Assembly (NCBI RefSeq): GCF_947495715.1
Contig: NZ_CANLZU010000006.1
Span: 62,001 to 126,000 of the forward strand
Direction of reading: 5' to 3'
Origin: an uncultured Oceanisphaera sp.
GTDB lineage: Bacteria > Pseudomonadota > Gammaproteobacteria > Enterobacterales > Aeromonadaceae
Length of the DNA stretch: 64,000 nucleotides
Shown: piece by piece, positions 36,277 to 54,348 of the stretch
Layout of the letters: every line of letters starts with the position of its first letter
How positions within the stretch are numbered: the first letter of the stretch is position 1
Position numbers and translations under genes: made by a program
Notes under the pieces: model-generated
What the model was told of the DNA's origin: nothing
The model's database searches: none
What the model saw: only the letters and a program-made list of their open reading frames with translations

Positions 36277-36662
36277 CAACAGCAAGGCAGCTGGCACACA
36301 GGAAGTGGACTGGCAGGAAGCCTTCAGGGATCACCGGCAAGAAGCCGGAACAGGGAGCAGGGACGTTGCGGTTACAGGAGTAACGCGGCAAAGGATGGCG
36401 AGGAACGCCAGACAGCCAGGATGGCACCAGGACCCGGCCCGGATGGCCAAGAGGACAACCGCAGGATGCGGCAGGGAATACCTCCCGGAAGGAGGCGCTG
36501 GTAGCAGGATGCCACCATATCAGGATGATGCAGGAACAGCCCGATGGAACGGGAAGGGGAAGACACGGGAAGCGTCAGGTCAGGGAATGCAGGGAGCAAT
36601 CAGGTTTAAGGAGCAAACCGACGACACCTTGAAGGGCAGCCAATCATTGGCTGCCCTTTTTT
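36277..36662 (+). ncRNA. csrB: CsrB-type regulatory RNA (CsrA-sequestering)
   Basis: The roughly 385-nt stretch has about 28 GGA triplets, most as CAGGA, CAGGGA or AAGGATG, many in small hairpin loops (for example ccgcaggatgcgg, gccaggatggc). This is the design of CsrB/RsmZ RNAs, which bind many CsrA dimers and relieve CsrA control of carbon storage, motility and virulence mRNAs. Length is near the 369 nt of E. coli CsrB. The 3' end is a perfect Rho-independent terminator, gggcagccaat/attggctgccc, then TTTTTT (36634-36662). A promoter and a UvrY/GacA box lie upstream. The open reading frames crossing it have no coding features. The 5' end is approximate. Confidence 0.93.
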
Positions 36663-36767
36663 CTTGTTACTTTTCTTCACCAGCCGTACGTGTAGTCGAG
36701 GCCGCTACCCTGGTATTATCTGCCTGTGCTAACGTATAAGCCCCGTAGAATTAACAGGTTACAGACC

Positions 36768-45616: not shown

Positions 45617-46099
45617 AAGCAAGCTTGTGGCCTGCCTCTTGGTCACAAGTCTGTCAGTCCATAAAATATGCTCAGAGGCAACTGGGTAGCCTCTTCCGAC
45701 ACGCTAAACCGCATCCCTGCGACGCTCAGCACATGACGTCCGACCGCCAAGGATGGCGGGAGTGTCAGCATTGCAGGAGCCGTTGTTGACCTGTCATGTG
45801 ATGGTCGGCTGAGTCTATCCCAGCCGCCTCTTTTTAGGCTCGGAGTCGTCGGTGAGCACCACTGACAACCCCCTCCGTGTTGAGCATCGGGTTGGCTGTC
45901 AGTATTCGACAGACTGCACCTCAGCTTCACGAAGCAGCAGCGGGGATTGCCGAAGCCGACCGCCAAATGTTAGGGATGACATTTGCCGAGCGTCCCATGG
46001 ATGGGCTTGAAGCGTGTCGGCGGAGTGCAACCGCGCTGCTGCTTCGCATGGCGGTCATTCTCAACGATTTGTGACCAAGAGACAGGCTTACCGCTTTGT
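45617..46099. other. yceH-sco intergenic region
   Basis: The 480 bases contain no believable gene; nearly all is occupied by the repeat element described at 45630-46087. Reading frames across it are by-products of its inverted sequences. Confidence 0.6.
45630..46087. repeat. GGA-hairpin element A with terminal inverted repeats
   Basis: Ends gcctgcctcttggtcacaag (45630-45649) and tttgtgaccaagagacaggc (46068-46087) are inverted repeats matching at 18 of 20 positions. Inside are an 87-bp block (45722-45808) shared with element B at 83 of 87 positions and three hairpins with GGA in the loop: ccgccaaggatggcgg (45744-45759), CAAATGT-tagggatg-ACATTTG (45964-45985) and cccatggatggg (45994-46005). 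The last two sit inside a larger stem, cgaagcagcagcg with cgctgctgcttcg (45930-45942 and 46034-46046). The build recalls CsrA-binding hairpins; whether it is transcribed is unknown. Confidence 0.75.
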
Positions 46100-46672
46100 T
46101 TAAAGCCCCAGTTTATCGATAAGCGCTTCGGGCCCGCCGGGCAGGCCGGTTTGCTGAAGTTGCACCCGGCCCTGTTCGTCCAGCACGGTAATAGCGTTGG
46201 AATGAGCGACTTCACCGTCGGCCAGCCCCATGTAGCGAATGTTCAGCGCCATGGCCAGGGTGCGTACCTGTTCATCGTTGCCGCTGAGCAGGGTCCAGTG
46301 CTCATCCAGTTTTCTCTTTTTGGCGAAATGACGCATGATTTTGGGCGTGTCCTTTGCCGGGGTCAGCGACACCAGTACAAAGCCCAGCCCTTGTTGCTGC
46401 TCGGTGCCGAGGGCGGCCTGTATCGACTTGAGATCGGACACGATCACCGGGCAGGCGGTGATGCAGTCGGTATAGATCATCGCCACTATCCGCTTCTTGC
46501 CCGCCAGTTGCCGAATGTTCAGGCTGTTTCCCTGGCGGTTTTGCCAATCGCTGTTGAGCTGGTAAATAGAGTCGCCGGGCAGGGCGGCCTGAACATTAAA
46601 GGCGGTCAGCAACAGCGTCGTTATTAACGTCAACTTCAATTTCAATTTCAACGACAGCATCGGTGCTCTCAT
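46100..46672 (-). CDS. SCO1/SenC-type copper chaperone protein
   Basis: A 190-residue secreted or membrane-tethered thioredoxin-fold protein. It begins with a signal-like sequence (LKLKLTLITTLLLTAFNVQA), then the copper site CxxxC in MIYTDCITACPVIVSDL and the distal His in GEVAHSNAI. Sco proteins deliver copper, most often to cytochrome oxidase; here the neighbour is a copper nitrite reductase, so loading NirK is a reasonable role (inference). Start ATG 46672 is set by AGGAGA seven bases upstream, which means the gene overlaps the end of nirV by 77 bases in another frame. Confidence 0.87.
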   Translation of the reverse strand: MRAPMLSLKLKLKLTLITTLLLTAFNVQAALPGDSIYQLNSDWQNRQGNSLNIRQLAGKKRIVAMIYTDCITACPVIVSDLKSIQAALGTEQQQGLGFVLVSLTPAKDTPKIMRHFAKKRKLDEHWTLLSGNDEQVRTLAMALNIRYMGLADGEVAHSNAITVLDEQGRVQLQQTGLPGGPEALIDKLGL

Positions 46673-47450
46673 CGGGTCTCTCCTGTGCACAACGAAAACC
46701 CAGGTTGCCCAGGGTGTAAGGCGCCTTCAGGCTGGAGCTAAAGCCGAAGCGCATGAAGGCGGCATAGTCGGACGGATCGGCGCTGCCGGCGGCAGCCGAG
46801 CCGCAGAACAGTCCCTGGTCCAGGGCGCTGTCACCGCGGGACTCGCCGGTAACCAGGCCGGAGTTGAAGTCCCGAGTCCATTCCCACACCAGACCGTGCA
46901 AGTCCTGTATGTGCCAGTGGTTGGCCGGGCTTTGCCCCACCTTCGGCAGGGTCGCCGTGGCCGGGCGGGCATACCAGGACAGAATGCGCCGGGTGTAGCC
47001 CGGCTCACGGCTGCCGTTGGCGGCCCGCTGTGAGGCCTGAGCGGCAAACTCCCACTCTGCCACCGTCGGTAATCGCTTGCCCCGGGCCTGGCAATAGGCG
47101 CCGGCCGCATACCAGGACACATGGGTCACCGGTTGTTCGAATTGCTCGGGCCGAGGGCCGTCCGGCCCCCAGTGACTCAGGTATTGTGGCTCTACAAACA
47201 GCGCCACTGCTCGATTGCGCTGCCAGCGCGGATGCCTGCGTACAAAGTCGGCAAACTGGCGATTGGTGACCGGGGTGGTGTCCAGCCAAAATGGCGCCAC
47301 CGGAGTGAGCGGGCTGTCTTTGGTAAGGTACAGCGGCCGAACCAGCCCGCCGGGCAGTTCGACCATCTGTGGCGCCGTTACCGGACTGGCGGCCATCGAC
47401 AAACCCGTTATCGATACCGCCGCCAGACTCAACAGCCGCACCGGGCTCAT
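46596..47450 (-). CDS. nirV: NirV, formylglycine-generating-enzyme-like protein
   Basis: A 284-residue protein of the FGE-sulfatase (SUMF1) fold with a cleavable signal peptide (SLAAVSITGLSMAASP). VELPGGLVRPLYLT, FWLDTTPVTNRQFADFVR, VTHVSWYAAGAYCQARGKRL and LPTVAEWEFAAQA are family motifs; HDLHGLVWEWTRDF-like sequence (here QDLHGLVWEWTRDF) and FRCAQ near the end complete it. NirV is found with nirK in denitrifiers; its exact role in nitrite reductase maturation is not settled. Its ATG shares one base with the nirK stop (TGATG). The final 30 residues are acidic and repetitive (EIEIEVDV) and overlap the sco gene. Confidence 0.87.
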   Translation of the reverse strand: MSPVRLLSLAAVSITGLSMAASPVTAPQMVELPGGLVRPLYLTKDSPLTPVAPFWLDTTPVTNRQFADFVRRHPRWQRNRAVALFVEPQYLSHWGPDGPRPEQFEQPVTHVSWYAAGAYCQARGKRLPTVAEWEFAAQASQRAANGSREPGYTRRILSWYARPATATLPKVGQSPANHWHIQDLHGLVWEWTRDFNSGLVTGESRGDSALDQGLFCGSAAAGSADPSDYAAFMRFGFSSSLKAPYTLGNLGFRCAQERPDESTDAVVEIEIEVDVNNDAVADRL

Positions 47451-48871
47451 CAGTGGGCGCTCCCGTCCATGATGATGGCCTTGCCTTCGTCGCGGCGTTT
47501 GGCCACCTCATCCGGCGTGACGACGCCGCCATTGTTGTCCCAGCTGTTCAGCACATAGGTCAGCACGTTGGCGGTATCTTCATCGGAGAGACGCATGGCC
47601 GGCATTATGCTGTCGAAGGCCTGGCCGTTGACCTTGATCGGACCTTTCAGGCCGTGCAGCACCACGTCGATGGCGCGGGTGGGATCGGCGTTGAGAAAAT
47701 CGGAGCCTGCCAGCGGAGGAAAGGCGCCGGGAATACCCTGGCCTTCGGCCTGGTGACAGGCCTGACAGTTGGCCTCATACACGCGCTTGCCGTACAGCAA
47801 CTGGTCGTCCTTGTTGTTGGCAACCAGTTTGGGATGCCCGTTGGGAATGCTCTGCACCGCCGAGCCTTCGGGCAGGTAGACGTTTTCAGCCACCTTGCCG
47901 GAGTAGACGATTTTATCTTCGGGGCCGTCTACCGCCATCATACCGAGCGCGCCCTTGTTGAAAGCCCGAAAGATGGAGTGATCCACCAGAATGAAGTTGC
48001 CGGGCACCTCCAGCTTGAATTCGGCCATGGCGGCGCCACCGGCAGGCACCAGGGTGGTCTGCACGTTTTCGTTCTGCAGATTGCCGCCTTCCACGCTTAC
48101 CTTGTCGAAAATCTCGCCGATGACATGGAAAGACGACACCAGGTTAGGCCCGCCGTTGCCTACAAAAAGGCGCACGGTTTCGCCCACGTTGGCGGTGAGT
48201 GCCTTGTCACCATTCAGCGCACCCACGGCGCCGTTGAACACCACATAGTCCGGCTGCTCCTTGATGACCTTGTCCATGTCAAACGACTGCAGGCCCTGTT
48301 CGCCATAGGCGCCCTTGGTATAGAAGTCGCCCTGCATCACATAATATTCCCTGTCTACCGGCGGCAATCCTTCCTTCGGCTCCACCAGGATCAGGCCATA
48401 CATGCCGTTGGCGATGTGCATGCCCACCGGCGCGGTGGCGCAGTGATACACATAGAGCCCGGGGTTGAGCGCCTTGAAGTTGAATACCGAGGTATGGCCG
48501 GGGGCGGTAAAGGACGAGGCGGCGCCACCACCCGGGCCGGTGACCGCGTGCAGGTCGATATTGTGAGGCATCTTGGAGCTGGGGTGGTTGGACAGGTGAA
48601 ACTCTACTTCATCGCCCTCGCGCACCCGCAGAAACTGACCCGGCACCGAGCCGCCGAAGGTCCAGAACATGTATTCCACCCCGTCGGCAATCTCCATCAC
48701 CTTTTCCACGGTTTCCATCTTCACCACCAGTTTGGCGGCGTGATCCCGCTGAATGGGCGGCGGCACCATGGGCGGAGAGGTCATGACGGCGTCTATTACC
48801 GGCAGGCTGGCGGCCTGGGCGGAAAGGGCGAAAGTAAAACCCAAGGCGGTAACGATATTGCTCAGTTTCAT
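47450..48871 (-). CDS. nirK: copper nitrite reductase NirK with C-terminal cytochrome c domain
   Basis: A 473-residue periplasmic enzyme that reduces nitrite to nitric oxide. A signal peptide ([15 protein letters not shown]) leads into two cupredoxin domains. Type 1 and type 2 copper ligands are visible in [33 protein letters not shown]-like sequence, [10 protein letters not shown] and [14 protein letters not shown]-terminal class I cytochrome c domain follows (CQACH, with a candidate Met ligand in [10 protein letters not shown]), making it the three-domain AniA/heme-c form. Start ATG 48871 follows AGGGAG. It is the first gene of nirK-nirV-sco, and an FNR/DNR-type box is about 95 bases upstream. 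Confidence 0.95.
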
Positions 48872-48965
48872 AGAATGCTCCCTGCGCGAGGCGCTGTGTA
48901 TGATGACCGTAGAAATCAAAAGCTGTATTTCATATATAAGTTTATAAGCCGGTTCATATTGAGAC

Positions 48966-48979
48966 CTGATACAGATCAA
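48966..48979. promoter_or_regulatory. FNR/DNR-type box upstream of nirK
   Basis: CTGATACAGATCAA differs at one position from the FNR consensus TTGAT-N4-ATCAA. Its place upstream of a nitrite reductase predicts anaerobic or NO-responsive activation. Confidence 0.75.
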
Positions 48980-49176
48980 TAAAGCGGCGTTATTCGAGCA
49001 GGGGAGGTCAAAAATGAGTCGAGTCAGGATCGCCAGGCGAAAAATGTAACATGGATCTCACTTTTTAATATTGCCAAAAATGGCGATGTTTGAGTTTATT
49101 ACCAATAAAATCAGTTTCTTGTGTGTTTTTATGGTCTGGGGAGGCAGGATGCAGAAGGAAGGGTTGTTAATTTTAT

Positions 49177-49196
49177 GTATATATAATTATGTATCC
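49177..49196. promoter_or_regulatory. candidate GntR operator 1 (TRAP operon 1)
   Basis: GTATATATAATTATGTATCC matches the perfect palindrome at 54527-54546 at 17 of 20 positions and contains the shared core ATATATAATTAT (49179-49190). It lies about 50 bases before the dctP ATG. Confidence 0.6.
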
Positions 49197-49243
49197 ATAA
49201 TAATATCTAGCCGTACCCACACTAACAGCCAAGGGAGTAAGCC

Positions 49244-50254
49244 ATGGATAGCAATATACAACCTTTTGGAAAGCGTTTTCAGAAAAGCCTGCTGGGGATC
49301 ATGCTGGGCACGGCACTGGCCAGCGGACCAGTGCTCGCCGACACCCTGAGGGTCGCCGGCAACTTCGCCACCGACCATTCCAGCAGCCTGGCGATGGAAG
49401 TGTTCAAGCAGGAGGTGGAGACCGCGACCGATAACGACATCAAGGTGCATCTGTTTCCGGCCATGCAGCTGGGCGGGGCCTCCGAAAATGTCGATCAGGT
49501 GCGCTCCGGCGTGCTGAGCATGACCTGGATTGGGGTGTCTTTCCTGTCGCGCACCGTGCCCGAGCTGGAAGCGGTCAGTTTGCCGTTTGTACTGAAAGAC
49601 CGGGAAACCGCCTTTCGCGTGATTGACGGCGAGGTCGGGGATCTGCTCAACGACAAACTGGCCGAAAAAGGCTTCGTCGCCCTCGGCTTCATGGAGCTGG
49701 GCGCGCGTCATATCACCAACAGCGTGCGGCCCATCGAGTCCATCGAAGACTTCGACGGCCTCAAGATCCGCCTGCAGCCGAATGAAACCCACCTGAAGAG
49801 CTTCCGTGCTCTGGGAGCCAGCCCGGTGTCCATGGGTATCAACGAGGTGTATTCGGCGCTGCAGCAGAAGGTGATCGACGGTCAGGAAAACCCCTTCAGC
49901 ATCATTCGCAAGAACAACTTCGGCGAAGTGCAGCAGTATCTCACCGATACCAACCACTTCTTCGACTTTATCGTGGTGGTGGCCAACAAGAGAAAGTTCG
50001 ACCGCATGTCGGACGACGAGCAACAGGTACTGCGCGATGCCATGACCAAGGCCGTGGCCTGGCAGCGTGAAAAGGCGGCCGAAGAAGACAGCCTGTCCCG
50101 GGACGAGCTGATTGCCGCCGGCATGAAGTTCAATGCGGTGACGCCCGAGCTGCATCAGGCCATGCAGGACAAGACCGCCGGTATCGTCGAAGAGCTGAAA
50201 GATCGTCTCGGCGCCGAGCTGGTTGACGCGGTACTGGATGGAGCCAAGTCATGA
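49244..50254 (+). CDS. TRAP transporter substrate-binding protein DctP (1)
   Basis: A 336-residue periplasmic binding protein of the DctP family with a long signal peptide (cleavage after LASGPVLA). Binding-fold marks are AGNFATDHSSSLAMEVFK, FPAMQLGGASENVDQVRSG and IESIEDFDGLKIRLQPNETH, where the arginine usually pairs with the substrate carboxylate. It feeds the DctQM pair encoded next (ATGA overlap). The ligand should be an organic acid; context suggests one that is an intermediate or relative of the hydantoinase-amidase route encoded downstream. Confidence 0.92.
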   Translation: MDSNIQPFGKRFQKSLLGIMLGTALASGPVLADTLRVAGNFATDHSSSLAMEVFKQEVETATDNDIKVHLFPAMQLGGASENVDQVRSGVLSMTWIGVSFLSRTVPELEAVSLPFVLKDRETAFRVIDGEVGDLLNDKLAEKGFVALGFMELGARHITNSVRPIESIEDFDGLKIRLQPNETHLKSFRALGASPVSMGINEVYSALQQKVIDGQENPFSIIRKNNFGEVQQYLTDTNHFFDFIVVVANKRKFDRMSDDEQQVLRDAMTKAVAWQREKAAEEDSLSRDELIAAGMKFNAVTPELHQAMQDKTAGIVEELKDRLGAELVDAVLDGAKS

Positions 50255-50817
50255 AAGCCGGCCACAGTGAGCATGCCGATATGCTTGCCGGGCCGGGAGC
50301 AAGCTCATCCCTGGCAGCGTCTGTACGGCGCTGTCTGCTGGGGGTGGACAGGGCCTCCATGCTGCTGATCCAGGCCACCATGGCGGTGATGGTGCTGCTG
50401 GTGTCGTCTCAGGTGTTCAGCCGTTATCTGCTGTCGGAGTCCATCGACTGGGCCGATGAAGGATCTCGTCTGGCCTTCGTCTGGGCCATCTTTCTGGCCA
50501 TTCCCCACGGTCTCAAGCAGGGGGTGCATGTGGGCATCGATGTGCTGACCAACCGGCTGCCGGCCCAATGGCAGGAGCGACTGGCGCGTCTCATGTTGTT
50601 GATCAGTGGCGTGCTGATGGTGGTGGTCTGCTACCAGGCGGTAATGGTCTCCATCGACACCTGGGAAGAGCTGATGCCAACGCTGCCGGTCACCGCCTCG
50701 GTGTTCTATTTCCCGGTGATGCTCAGCTGCGGCCATGCCTTGCTGCATCTGCTGTTCATGGCCTGGCAGGGTACCGACACCTGGCGCGAGCCGGATAACG
50801 AGGAGGAGGTCTCATGA
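50251..50817 (+). CDS. TRAP transporter small membrane subunit DctQ (1)
   Basis: A 188-residue protein with four hydrophobic segments after an approximately 30-residue hydrophilic start. SSQVFSRYLLSESIDWADEG is the DctQ signature (conserved ExR/E after helix 1) and AIFLAIPHGLKQGVHVGIDV the helix 2 region. It joins the DctM permease in the inner membrane. Overlaps of four bases with dctP before it and dctM after it indicate tight operon coupling. Confidence 0.9.
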   Translation: MKAGHSEHADMLAGPGASSSLAASVRRCLLGVDRASMLLIQATMAVMVLLVSSQVFSRYLLSESIDWADEGSRLAFVWAIFLAIPHGLKQGVHVGIDVLTNRLPAQWQERLARLMLLISGVLMVVVCYQAVMVSIDTWEELMPTLPVTASVFYFPVMLSCGHALLHLLFMAWQGTDTWREPDNEEEVS

Positions 50818-52094
50818 CTACATTGGCCATAGTGTTGTTTCTGATATTGGCCTTGCTCGGCATGCCGCTGGCGTTTTCGCTCGGTCTGGCGGCATTGGGT
50901 GGCCTGGCCTACAGCGGTATCGAGCTGTCGGTATTGCCGCAGCGAATGATGCACGCGGTCAACTCCTTTCCGCTGATGGCGATTCCGCTGTTCATGCTGG
51001 CGGGCGAGTTGATGGTGGGCGGTCAGGTGATGCAGCGCACCATCGACTTCGCCAACGCCGTGGTGGGGCGGGTCAAGGGCGGACTGGCCCATGTCACCCT
51101 GCTGTCCGGTCTGGGGCTGGCCTCGGTGACCGGGGCGGCCGTGGCGGGTGCCAGTGCGCTGGGCACCACCATGATGCCGTCGATGAAAAAGCATTACGAC
51201 GTGGGCTTTGGCTCGGCGGTGGTGGCCTCGGCCTCCAACCTGGGTCCCATTATTCCGCCCAGCGCGGCGATGATCGTCTACGCGCTGATGGCAGGATCTT
51301 CGGTGTCGGTCGGCGGCCTCTTCATGGCCGGTGTGGTGCCCGGAATTCTGCTGGTGGTCGGCATGATGGGCCTGGCCAGCTATATCGCGCACCGCAAGGG
51401 GTATGCGCCCACCGGTGAACCCTTCAGCTGGCAGAATCTGCTGATCCAGGGCAAGCGGGCAGGGGCCATCATTCTGATGCCGGTAGTGGTGATCGGCGGT
51501 ATCGTCGGGGGTGTCTTCACCGCCACGGAAGGGGCGGCCATCGCGGTGATCTATGCCTTTATCGTCGGCAAGTGGGTCACTCGCAAGCTGAGCTGGAGCG
51601 AGCTGCCGGGCTGTATGTTCCGCGCCGCGCTGACCTCGGCGGTCGTCGGTGCGCTGATCGCCTTTGCCACGCCACTGACCTTTCTGTTCACCATAGAGTT
51701 GTTGCCGCTGCGGTTGTCGGAGTTCATCCAGGGCTTTACCAGTAACCCCGAGGTGTTCCTCGCCATGGTGATGGTGATGCTGCTGATAGTGGGCATGTTT
51801 CTGGAGTCTAACGCCGCCTACATCATGCTGGTGCCGCTGTTTGCGCCCATCGCCCTGGCCTACGGCATAGACCCGCTCTACTTCGGCTTTCTGTTCGTGT
51901 TCAACCTGGTCATCGGCATGATGACGCCGCCGGTCGGGGTGCTGCTGTTCGTGATGTGTGGTATCGCCAAGATCCCCATGTCCCAACTGTTGCGCTATGT
52001 CTGGCCCTTTATTGCCCTGCAATACCTGGTGTTGATGTTGTGCTGGTTTTTCCCGGAAATCGTGACGGCCCTGCCGCATGCCCTGGGTTATTGA
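50814..52094 (+). CDS. TRAP transporter large permease DctM (1)
   Basis: A 426-residue permease with 11-12 membrane segments of the ion-transporter superfamily. ALLGMPLAFSLGLAALGG at the start, PLFMLAGELMVGG, SGLGLASVTGAAVAGASALG and GSAVVASASNLGPIIPPSAA are typical; the end GMMTPPVGVLLFVMCGIAKI is well conserved in DctM. It couples Na+ to uptake of the substrate delivered by DctP. The next gene begins 41 bases later and is probably in the same transcript. Confidence 0.94.
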   Translation: MTTLAIVLFLILALLGMPLAFSLGLAALGGLAYSGIELSVLPQRMMHAVNSFPLMAIPLFMLAGELMVGGQVMQRTIDFANAVVGRVKGGLAHVTLLSGLGLASVTGAAVAGASALGTTMMPSMKKHYDVGFGSAVVASASNLGPIIPPSAAMIVYALMAGSSVSVGGLFMAGVVPGILLVVGMMGLASYIAHRKGYAPTGEPFSWQNLLIQGKRAGAIILMPVVVIGGIVGGVFTATEGAAIAVIYAFIVGKWVTRKLSWSELPGCMFRAALTSAVVGALIAFATPLTFLFTIELLPLRLSEFIQGFTSNPEVFLAMVMVMLLIVGMFLESNAAYIMLVPLFAPIALAYGIDPLYFGFLFVFNLVIGMMTPPVGVLLFVMCGIAKIPMSQLLRYVWPFIALQYLVLMLCWFFPEIVTALPHALGY

Positions 52095-52135
52095 TTGTTA
52101 ACTGAAAAATCGAAAATTTTTCCAAGGAGAAAAAG

Positions 52136-52867
52136 ATGACTGATCGTACTTTGTTAGGTGTGCTGACCCCGTCTTCCAATACCAGTCTGGAGCCGGTGAC
52201 TGCCGATATTCTGCACGGTGTGGACAACACCAGCGCCCACTTCGGCCGCCTCAAGGTGACCGAGATTTCGCTGACCGAGCAGGCCCTGAGCCAGTTCGAC
52301 AACGAGCCTTTCCTGCAGGCGTCCCGGCTGCTGGCGGATGCCAAGGTGCAGTCCATCACCTGGAGCGGCACTTCCTCCGGCTGGCGCGGTTTTCAGGATG
52401 ACGAGATTCTGTGTGACGCCATCACCCGGGAAACCGGCATTCCGGCCACCACCTCGGTGCTGGCGCTGAACGAGCTGTTCGACCTGACCGGGGTTAAACG
52501 CTTCGGCCTCGTCACCCCTTACCTGCACGATGTGCAGAGCAAGGTGATTGCCACCTATGCCGCCGCCGGCTTCGAATGTGTGGCCGAGCGTCATCTCAAC
52601 GACAAGGGCAACTTCTCCTTCTCCGAGGTGAGCGAGGAAACGCTTGAGGAAATGGTACGTGCCGTGGCCGCCGAGCAGCAATGTGATGCCATCACCATTT
52701 TCTGCACCAACCTGCGCGGTGCCCGAGTGGCAGCCAGACTGGAAAAGGAACTGGGTATTCCCATCTACGACACTGTCTCTACCGGAGTGTGGAAGGGCAT
52801 GCTGCTGGCCGACGCCGACCCGAGCAAAATTAAAAACTGGGGCAGTATTTTTTCAATTAAGCCATAA
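52136..52867 (+). CDS. Asp/Glu racemase-superfamily enzyme, AMDase/maleate isomerase-like
   Basis: A 243-residue protein of the Asp/Glu racemase superfamily, closest in pattern to arylmalonate decarboxylase and maleate isomerase. The first active-site motif reads WSGTSSGWRG: Gly78 stands where racemases and maleate isomerase have the first catalytic Cys, exactly as in AMDase. The second Cys is kept (Cys190 in IFCTNLRG). TTSVLALNEL and FGLVTPYLHDVQSKV resemble AMDase as well. One cysteine in the second position points to a decarboxylase-type or one-base reaction rather than racemisation (inference). It follows dctM with AAGGAG, and a terminator-like hairpin comes after it. Confidence 0.82.
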   Translation: MTDRTLLGVLTPSSNTSLEPVTADILHGVDNTSAHFGRLKVTEISLTEQALSQFDNEPFLQASRLLADAKVQSITWSGTSSGWRGFQDDEILCDAITRETGIPATTSVLALNELFDLTGVKRFGLVTPYLHDVQSKVIATYAAAGFECVAERHLNDKGNFSFSEVSEETLEEMVRAVAAEQQCDAITIFCTNLRGARVAARLEKELGIPIYDTVSTGVWKGMLLADADPSKIKNWGSIFSIKP

Positions 52868-52875
52868 TTATATAT
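52864..52875. promoter_or_regulatory. candidate GntR operator 2 (before gntR)
   Basis: ATAATTATATAT is the exact inverse of the core ATATATAATTAT; the palindromic surroundings run from CATAATTA to TATTATG. It lies at the end of the enzyme gene and about 165 bases before the regulator's start. Confidence 0.5.
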
Positions 52876-52885
52876 TATGTAATTT

Positions 52886-52909
52886 AAAGCCCCGGTACAC
52901 CGGGGCTTT
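52886..52909 (+). terminator. terminator-like hairpin after the AMDase-like gene
   Basis: Arms aaagccccgg and ccggggcttt, loop taca. The T-run is only TTT. Confidence 0.6.
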
Positions 52910-53040
52910 GGTGCCTGAGGTCGTGGCGCGATCGGGATCACGCTGGCTACGGCCGAAGATGGCGCTTTTATGCAGCAGGTATTATGCTGCCCGGCTGACA
53001 AGTTGTAAGCCGCACACAAATTATAAAAAAGGCGGGCACT

Positions 53041-53733
53041 GTGGTTACACCTATTAATAGTTACGGTAGAAATTCTCTGCGTCGTCGCTCCCTTCATGAG
53101 GAAGTGGCCGATTGCGTACGCACCATGATCATCGAAGGCGAGCTGAAAGAAGGCCAGCGCATCAACGAGCCCGAGCTGTGTCAGCGGCTGGATATTTCTC
53201 GCACCCCCCTGCGCGAGGCGCTGAAGGTACTCCATTCCGAAGGCATGGTCACCATAGAGCCCAATCGGGGCGCCTGGGTGGCCACCATCACGGCCGAGGA
53301 AATTCGCGAGCATTTCGAGATCATCAGCACCCTGGAACGGCGAGCGGCCGAGCTGACCGCCATCAAGGCCAGCGAGAGTGACCTTACCCGGCTGAGCCAG
53401 TTGCAGGAAAAGCTGGAACACCACCATCAGGCCCAGGAGCGTCACGAGTATTTCGAGATCAATCAGCATATTCACCGCCTGATCATCGAGCTGGCGAACA
53501 ACGAGAGCCTGACCCAGCTGCACCATCAGCTGATGAACCGGGTCAGTCGCGGGCGCTATCTGGCCATCGGCATGCAACATCGTTGGGACGAATCCGTCGG
53601 TGAGCACAAAGCCCTGCTCGACGCCCTGCTGGCACGCGATGGCGACAGAGCCGGCCGCATTCTGGCCGAGCATGTGATGCATACCGGCGAAACCGTGGTC
53701 AAGGAGCTGGAGCAGCAACAAAAGGTCGGCTGA
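53041..53733 (+). CDS. GntR-family regulator, FadR/FCD subfamily
   Basis: A 230-residue transcription factor. The N-terminal winged helix has SLHEEVADCVRTMIIEGELK, EGQRINEPELCQRLDISRTP and LREALKVLHSEGMVTIEPNR, the GntR hallmark. The C-terminal FCD domain (about residues 85-220) keeps the metal-binding His/Asp pattern around EINQHIHRLIIEL and GEHKALLDALLARD...EHVMHTGE. GTG 53041 is the start, after AAAGGCGG. Lying between two catabolic operons, it likely controls both and responds to an organic acid. Three AT-rich palindromes around it are the probable operators. Confidence 0.9.
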   Translation: MVTPINSYGRNSLRRRSLHEEVADCVRTMIIEGELKEGQRINEPELCQRLDISRTPLREALKVLHSEGMVTIEPNRGAWVATITAEEIREHFEIISTLERRAAELTAIKASESDLTRLSQLQEKLEHHHQAQERHEYFEINQHIHRLIIELANNESLTQLHHQLMNRVSRGRYLAIGMQHRWDESVGEHKALLDALLARDGDRAGRILAEHVMHTGETVVKELEQQQKVG

Positions 53734-53840
53734 CCGGTCATTCGGCAAGCCAAAATTCCACCAGCAATCTGTCTTCCCCCATATCCCCGAATCACGGCGG
53801 GTCACCGCCGGTCTCGAACCCAGCCAATCCGTTTTCTTCT

Positions 53841-54348
53841 GTAATACCAATCTGAGAAAGTATCTGCTCTATTTGTCAGCTCTGTAAAGGCCGAACGAAG
53901 GGTCTATTCCACCGACACGCTGCAGATGAATGACACTCATAGTTTCAGCCAGCTGCGAGCATTCACTGGATACTCGGTCAGGCTGAAACGATTCGTCACG
54001 GCGAGGCAGGCTCGCCCCATGTACGCTCAGCACATGACATCCGACCGCCAAGGATGGCGGGAGTGTCAGCATTGCAGGATCCTTTGTTGACCTGTCATAT
54101 GATGGTCGGTGAAATAATAGATCCCTTCATCCGTCCCTAAGCTACCGAGTCGCCTGTGAGCGTGGCTTACAGACAACTCGCTGCTTAAGGAGAGGCAACA
54201 GAGATCGGCTTCCACGACCGTGACAATGCCAGGGATGGCATTTCCCGAGCCCCCAAGGATGGGTTTATGGCGAGTCGTGGGAGCCGACTCTGTTGCCTCG
54301 AGTATCCAGTTTCAAAATAGATCATATTTTTATTTAGATTGGTATTAC
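53841..54348. repeat. GGA-hairpin element B in a MITE-like frame
   Basis: Perfect 13-bp terminal inverted repeats gtaataccaatct (53841-53853) and agattggtattac (54336-54348) enclose about 508 bp. Inside are the 87-bp block shared with element A (54023-54109) and hairpins with GGA in the loop: ccgccaaggatggcgg (54045-54060), AATGCC-agggat-GGCATT (54225-54242) and cccaaggatggg (54252-54263). The last two lie within a long outer stem (54193-54218 with 54274-54297). The ends differ from those of element A, so the inner module, not the frame, is what is shared. Confidence 0.78.

Follow-up and report, generated by a model that had tools for sequence, protein, structure and literature searches.

TwoAYGGAY (RF01731) and CsrB are placed in a common Rfam clan, CL00106. 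The idea that TwoAYGGAY RNAs bind CsrA reportedly came from Gardner and Eldai. CsrA binding was proposed for this family in 2014 (PMC4333381), and RUACARGGAUGU is the consensus obtained for E. coli CsrA by systematic evolution of ligands by exponential enrichment (PMC6692469). Here, we describe two elements, A and B, in a stretch of DNA from an uncultured Oceanisphaera sp. (contig NZ_CANLZU010000006.1, positions 62,001 to 126,000); the whole stretch of 64,000 nucleotides is called the window below, and the genome to which it belongs the host genome. An earlier note on this DNA had read A and B as decoys for CsrA. We conclude, with good support, that both are very probably mobile repeats resembling miniature inverted-repeat transposable elements (MITEs) and belong to a twin-hairpin family like TwoAYGGAY. 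The best explanation that we can offer, with a probability of about 0.47, is that these mobile twin-hairpin repeats would serve as dispersed CsrA decoys.

Each element carries two twin-hairpin modules, one per strand, arranged head to head. This was seen in a search with R1, a covariance model built from 19 copies, 18 from the host genome and one from Oceanimonas smirnovii. Side-by-side reading of copies gives the order of a module as an outer palindromic stem, hairpin 1 with an ANGGAN loop, a short linker ending in GAGC, hairpin 2 with a second ANGGAN loop, a TTYAYnGCGnGTC-like stretch, and the outer stem again. With R1, four modules of the window reach E < 1e-4, two in each element; a fifth match, at E 0.2, was left out of the count. 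The plus-strand module of A (45945-46028; 69 bits, E 1.2e-14) has the loops AGGGAT (45972-45977) and ATGGAT (45997-46002), and the plus-strand module of B (54203-54289; 88.7 bits, E 1.8e-19) has AGGGAT (54231-54236) and AAGGAT (54255-54260). All of these loops fit ANGGAN, and ATGGAT alone fits AYGGAY. The intact GGA modules of both elements are found on the plus strand only. ANGGA loops occur in pairs, as CsrA binding would call for, in the plus-strand modules of A and B, and also in modules from across Gammaproteobacteria, but not in the interrupted minus-strand modules of the window. When hairpins with six-base loops and stems of at least five Watson-Crick pairs were counted on both strands of the window, an ANGGAN loop was present in 3 of the 6 inside the elements, compared with 1 of the 224 outside. 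The folding z against shuffled sequence is -7.4 for element A (45630-46087) and -10.1 for element B (53841-54348).

The earlier note had described a block of 87 bp common to the two elements, hairpins with GGA loops, and two different outer stems, and these were borne out. The block lies at 45722-45808 in A and at 54023-54109 in B (both on the plus strand) and is 95% identical between them. The CCGCCA-AGGA-TGGCGG hairpin (45744-45759 in A), the AGGGAT hairpins, the ATGGAT and AAGGAT hairpins, and the two unlike outer stems are all present in the window sequence. However, the layout is that of two inverted modules per element, and the block is largely an extra hairpin unit, reversed and nested in a hairpin of the minus-strand module. 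At locus L033, unlike in A and B, the same hairpin is uninterrupted, and several copies have an extra reversed hairpin unit nested within a hairpin. The minus-strand module of A (45685-45819; 50.8 bits, E 3.4e-10) has hairpin 1 interrupted by the nested unit and retains one ANGGAN loop, AGGGAT. The minus-strand module of B (53901-54120; 30.2 bits, E 3.7e-5) is enlarged by nested hairpin units and has no ANGGAN loop in its hairpins. It is because of these nested insertions that the minus-strand modules are short of GGA loops.

In class-wide modules, both loops are C-ANGGAN-G. Since the regular expression used to collect these modules required GGA in both loops, and allowed a GGA spacing of 19-28, we also took 51 copies from genome G335 that were collected by BLAST, with a query core that included the loops without demanding them. 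In hairpin 2 of these 51 copies, the A, G, G, and A of the loop are kept in 49, 51, 48, and 51, while the two N positions, the second and sixth bases, are variable (G37 A8 C3 T2 and G18 T16 C16 A1, respectively). The A and GGA of hairpin 1 are kept in 51, 48, 51, and 50 copies. Among 123 class modules, hairpin 2 is ACANGGANGU in 100 and UACARGGAUGU in 24, and the GGA-to-GGA spacing is 22-24 nt in 122. As a sequence, the hairpin 2 pattern matches CsrA sites. In the genus of the host, the spacing is 22-26 in all 48 modules, and ACANGGANGU is present in 21 of the 48. The most frequent hairpin 2 form there is CCCATGGATGGG, so the flanks fit the CsrA consensus less well in this genus. At loci L318 and L319 of genome G345, the loop of hairpin 1 is shortened to AGGGA, with GGA retained.

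Elements A and B, which the earlier note had treated as a pair, are both real but are merely two of many copies. The 87-bp block has at least 31 matches in the host genome (40 of 120 candidates were scored), and the other 29 were examined with their flanks. The covariance model that had been suggested as a check on the two elements, now built as R1, finds modules in the host genome, in its relatives, and across the class; the copy numbers per genome and the genome counts from these surveys are lower bounds. At least 36 of 61 relatives are matched by R1, and every one of the 23 genomes in the host's own genus group is among them. Among 37 named genomes, at least 12 have matches: these are Vibrio albus and the whole set of 11 that fall on the Oceanisphaera/Oceanimonas/Zobellella side, two of which are metagenome-assembled genomes. 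None of the six Aeromonas genomes among these 37 was matched. Of 274 genomes sampled across Gammaproteobacteria, at least 49 are matched, and the module is a class-wide repeat in Gammaproteobacteria. In G345, which was searched together with one other genome, there are 109 R1 matches among 150 scored candidates. Uninterrupted inverted pairs of modules are seen at 9 of 53 loci of the host's genus (L118, L122, L123, L124, L128, L132, L137, L138, and L160).

The ends of both elements are terminal inverted repeats. Those of A (45630-45651 and 46066-46087, plus strand) are 22 nt long and 91% complementary, and those of B (53841-53874 and 54315-54348, plus strand) are 34 nt long and 79% complementary. 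The two kinds of ends differ in sequence, CTG(T/C)CTCTTGGTCACAA for A and GTAATACCAATCT for B; the ends of A presumably resemble those of IS50/Tn5. O. psychrotolerans (L040) has no such element between the two genes that border A, and the flanks are continuous with about a dozen bases between them. Oceanisphaera arctica (L038) also lacks A at this site and has some 200 nt of different sequence there. R1 finds nothing at the site in either relative. The absence of A at the same site in two relatives thus identifies it as a MITE-like insertion. A related element with ends of the A type occupies this intergenic region in Candidatus O. merdipullorum (L048, 1600-2000), where it is bordered by an exact 16-bp direct repeat. 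The site may therefore be an insertion hotspot, or the insertion may be older. The candidate target-site duplication beside A itself, GCTTGTGGC / GCTTACCGC, matches at just 6 of 9 positions. Terminal inverted repeats and many copies are features of both A and B, and an empty site was found for A. The two flanks of one G335 copy also occur in the sister genome G369, where no module was detected between them. L197, L200, L263, and similar copies of G335 make up a uniform MITE-like subfamily that has the same core and whose ends are close to GAGTCACATGGAAAGGATACCC.

The GGA loops are kept while the stems change, in A and B and also among the 51 copies of G335, and this covariation-like pattern had been put forward in the earlier note as the mark of a selected RNA. 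The pattern is there, but covariation itself proves to be poor evidence. The counts on A1 give 94.7% of cells paired, versus 79.2% when shuffled, and 12 pairs changed on both sides, versus 8.3. Genomes G335 and G186 have many copies in which the arms, about 25-43 bp long, are near-perfect yet unlike those of other copies, around an almost constant core (loci L190-L201 and L233-L249 in G335, L202-L209 in G186), and one G335 subfamily has arms in common. Quasi-palindrome correction during replication would yield such arms without RNA. Covariation alone was rejected as proof of RNA, since correction at the DNA level may yield the same near-perfect, copy-differing arms, and the same caution applies to stem covariation in long palindromes generally.

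With covariation discounted, weight was placed on the loops, the spacing, and the asymmetry between G-U and A-C flaws in the stems. If the GGA strand folds as RNA, G-U should exceed A-C, while mutation alone should give both alike. Among 119 distinct modules from 30 genomes outside the host's genus, the flaws on the GGA strand are 121 G-U versus 21 A-C; these are counts of cells, not of events, with weak-arm modules (score under 12) dropped and hairpin 2 left out. Genome by genome, G-U is in excess in 15, A-C in 2, and neither in 13. G345 contributes 59 G-U and 2 A-C to the total, and the remainder is 62 versus 19. A looser stem limit gives a smaller excess in the same direction, with G-U:A-C ratios of 94:41 in the class set, 28:12 in the host genome, and 39:19 in the genus. 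The excess is as expected for, and consistent with, the GGA strand as the folding strand. The reading of the loops as CsrA sites thus draws on the ANGGAN loops, on this strand asymmetry, and on relatives that score above the cut-off of TwoAYGGAY, a member of the CsrB clan, although it loses the support that covariation had seemed to give. We give about an even chance to the GGA strand being a functional RNA that binds CsrA, which is the best single reading of the sequences.

How would such repeats act in the cell? Transcripts of the GGA strand would arise through read-through or from a promoter within the element, and each intact module would present two sites, separated by about 23 nt, to one CsrA dimer. 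Many copies would then act as dispersed CsrA decoys beside the true CsrB RNAs, and the uninterrupted head-to-head pairs of the host's genus would give one GGA module in either direction of transcription. A promoter-like site lies across the left end of A (45640-45667, plus strand), with 9 of 12 consensus bases where shuffled sequences average 0.1, and another lies in B on the minus strand, also with 9 of 12 (shuffles 1.1); both are consensus matches only. A decoy role for A and B is plausible. That the copies jointly titrate CsrA in the cell is doubtful. A wider picture is doubtful as well, in which transposable CsrA sponges occur throughout the class, scatter sites for the CsrA dimer over the genome, add to the true CsrB RNAs, and by their copy number (109 modules found in one case) determine how strongly the Csr system is buffered.

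The host genome has csrA. It also has two CsrB matches above the cut-off, together with a third, weaker one in the window; this CsrB-like RNA (36378-36668, plus strand; 57.8 bits, cut-off 71) is GGA-rich and has a terminator-like hairpin and a T run at its 3' end. Of these three matches, two are followed by a twin-hairpin element within about 800 nt downstream of the 3' end of CsrB (L282, 697-1076; L283, 1170-1419).

What do the neighboring genes tell us about the GGA strand? Their orientation was guessed from the longest open reading frame or from a codon score, rather than taken from annotation. For 75 modules from the class and the family, the GGA strand is antisense to both neighbors in 32 cases and sense to both in 11, while 21 modules lie between convergent genes, 10 between divergent genes, and 1 is unassigned. 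The corresponding numbers are 14, 6, 12, 1, and 3 in the host's genus (n = 36) and 8, 4, 6, 2, and 20 for 40 loci of G345. Element A of the window is flanked by convergent genes, which we take to be yceH and an SCO1-like gene, and B lies between codirectional genes, presumably gntR-like and dihydropyrimidinase-like, with its intact module in the sense direction. The yceH of the window is 91% identical to that of O. arctica, and the host genome is close to Oceanisphaera.

A number of observations weigh against a CsrA-binding RNA. The GGA strand is more often antisense than sense to codirectional neighbors (32 versus 11), and CsrA sites in the sense direction at the 3' ends of neighboring mRNAs, which the earlier note had also offered, fit badly. 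The shortage of sense insertions might arise because they act and are weeded out. CsrA is present in 45 of the 49 module genomes and in 190 of the 225 others, and so is not significantly tied to the module (p = 0.26; this tally and that for Y1_Tnp below were counted by eye from lists). This test is uninformative because most genomes have CsrA. Genome G292, which is 98% complete, bears the module and has no CsrA match; the other module genomes without one are G105, G166, and G197 (75, 88, and 67% complete). Hairpin 1 of the G335 copies barely varies at its N positions (G50 A1 and T49 A1 G1), and the linker and 3' side are largely conserved to the same degree as the loops; therefore, the A-N-GGA-N pattern in this genome rests on hairpin 2. 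Some G335 copies have broken loops, with the second G of hairpin 2 altered in 3 of 51. The minus-strand modules of the window have lost most of their GGA loops, and Ysr224, a weak match, is annotated on the strand opposite to the GGA strand. A folded single DNA strand could likewise favor G-T over A-C. Furthermore, the earlier note had named hairpins explained by transposon ends alone as an outcome that would speak against it, and the location of the hairpins within mobile elements comes close to this.

The hairpins could instead be cis-acting signals for mobility, if a single DNA strand, once folded, is recognized by a transposition protein and it is mobility, not CsrA, that maintains the GGA loops. 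Such recognition of a folded single strand is a feature of REP/RAYT and IS200-type systems. The MITE anatomy, the empty site, and the nested and inverted modules all agree with this explanation, as does the conservation of the linker and 3' side alongside the loops, and a folded DNA strand would also give a strand-specific excess of G-T. Y1_Tnp is somewhat more frequent among genomes that bear the module (40 of 49) than among the others (146 of 225; p = 0.028), and the host genome has two matches. However, there is no Y1_Tnp match in G335, with its 47 BLAST module matches, nor in G298, and Y1_Tnp was set aside as the helper, the association being weak. Targeting by replication strand was rejected, since G345 has no bias, with 42 leading and 54 lagging among 96 placed modules (p = 0.26; the origin and terminus were placed by the GC skew of 20 samples, and 13 modules near either were left out). 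Most copies with diverged arms retain the loops, and the equality of the loops with the CsrA consensus is left unexplained. We therefore regard mobility signaling as unlikely, but as the alternative to be taken most seriously. If the repeats are instead selfish palindromes without function, the covariation would come from arm-to-arm copying during replication and the loops would simply be inherited. The near-perfect, differing arms of G335 and G186, which would be hard to reach by stepwise compensation, speak for this, but it predicts neither the excess of G-U over A-C nor a hairpin 2 in which A and GGA are nearly fixed beside varying N positions, and we consider it improbable.

Two further alternatives concern the transcript itself. 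The product could be the opposite strand, with UCC loops, as an sRNA or an mRNA 3' end like Yersinia Ysr224. Weak Ysr224 matches do fall on the UCC strand (best 32.3 bits), and the GGA strand is often antisense to its neighbors; yet every Ysr224 score seen is far under the 70-bit cut-off and the G-U excess falls on the GGA strand, which makes this reading very improbable. The elements could also be bidirectional terminators, or stem-loops that protect 3' ends between convergent genes. This would suit the long stable stems and the predominance of convergent over divergent sites (21 versus 10 in the class set and 12 versus 1 in the host's genus), but no terminator-like site was found in the region of either A or B, and two conserved ANGGAN loops at near-fixed spacing are left unexplained, so that such a function is most improbable.

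Should the GGA strand be produced and bind CsrA, mobile repeats would both give rise to and tune a global RNA regulator. The capacity of the Csr system would then vary between close relatives with their element content, given that the 11 nearest named genomes are matched by R1 and none of the 6 Aeromonas genomes is. The TwoAYGGAY-CsrA proposal (PMC4333381) becomes testable with many natural variants. Among the top-ranked papers for such a connection or for the loop sequences, judged by title and the start of the abstract and with subscription papers outside the scope, no published link of such repeats with CsrA was found, nor do the accessible portions of PMC9788540, PMC4383904, PMC2864571, PMC11701678, and PMC12889724 report one.

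How, then, do the elements compare with known families? The Rfam scan of the window gave no family at its cut-off. CsrB/RsmB (RF00018, cut-off 71 bits) was rejected as an identity for A and B, because the window has no match at the gathering threshold and the three matches of the host genome are other loci. The elements resemble CsrB/RsmB, the clan partner of TwoAYGGAY, in their repeated GGA hairpins, which would bind CsrA; however, CsrB is encoded by a free-standing sRNA gene that has a terminator of its own, whereas A and B are mobile palindromic repeats. A review describes Ysr224 (RF02770) as responsive to temperature and counts it with the 20 sRNAs of highest prevalence (PMC9029176). The complement of the 3' part of Ysr224 reads as a module (AGGGAT hairpin, linker, ATGGAT hairpin), and its best score in 13 loci of the host genome is 29.5 bits. 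With bacterial MITEs and REP/REPIN-type repeats, A and B have in common that they are short, multicopy, and palindromic, with inverted pairs and terminal repeats, and both window copies are intergenic. They differ in their internal twin hairpins with conserved ANGGAN loops, and no helper transposase was identified.

The window copies were also rejected as members of TwoAYGGAY proper (cut-off 43 bits), since the window has no match at the gathering threshold and the host genome none at E 0.001. The family matches 17 of the 274 genomes, and 3 of these 17 are also R1-positive. The window modules differ from it in their linker and 3' side (GAGC; TTYAYnGCGnGTC), and 16 of 17 class loci scanned are below its cut-off, with L180 alone passing. 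Nevertheless, relatives of the module form do score above the cut-off (L180, 45.2 bits; L275, 55.0; L279, 44.6). Some TwoAYGGAY matches lie a short distance apart in inverted orientation, as the modules of A and B do (G254 C2:97225/97450; G364 C1:460963/461240 and 1853353/1853592), and both families have two adjacent ANGGAN-type hairpins in a long, variable outer stem, in several copies per genome.

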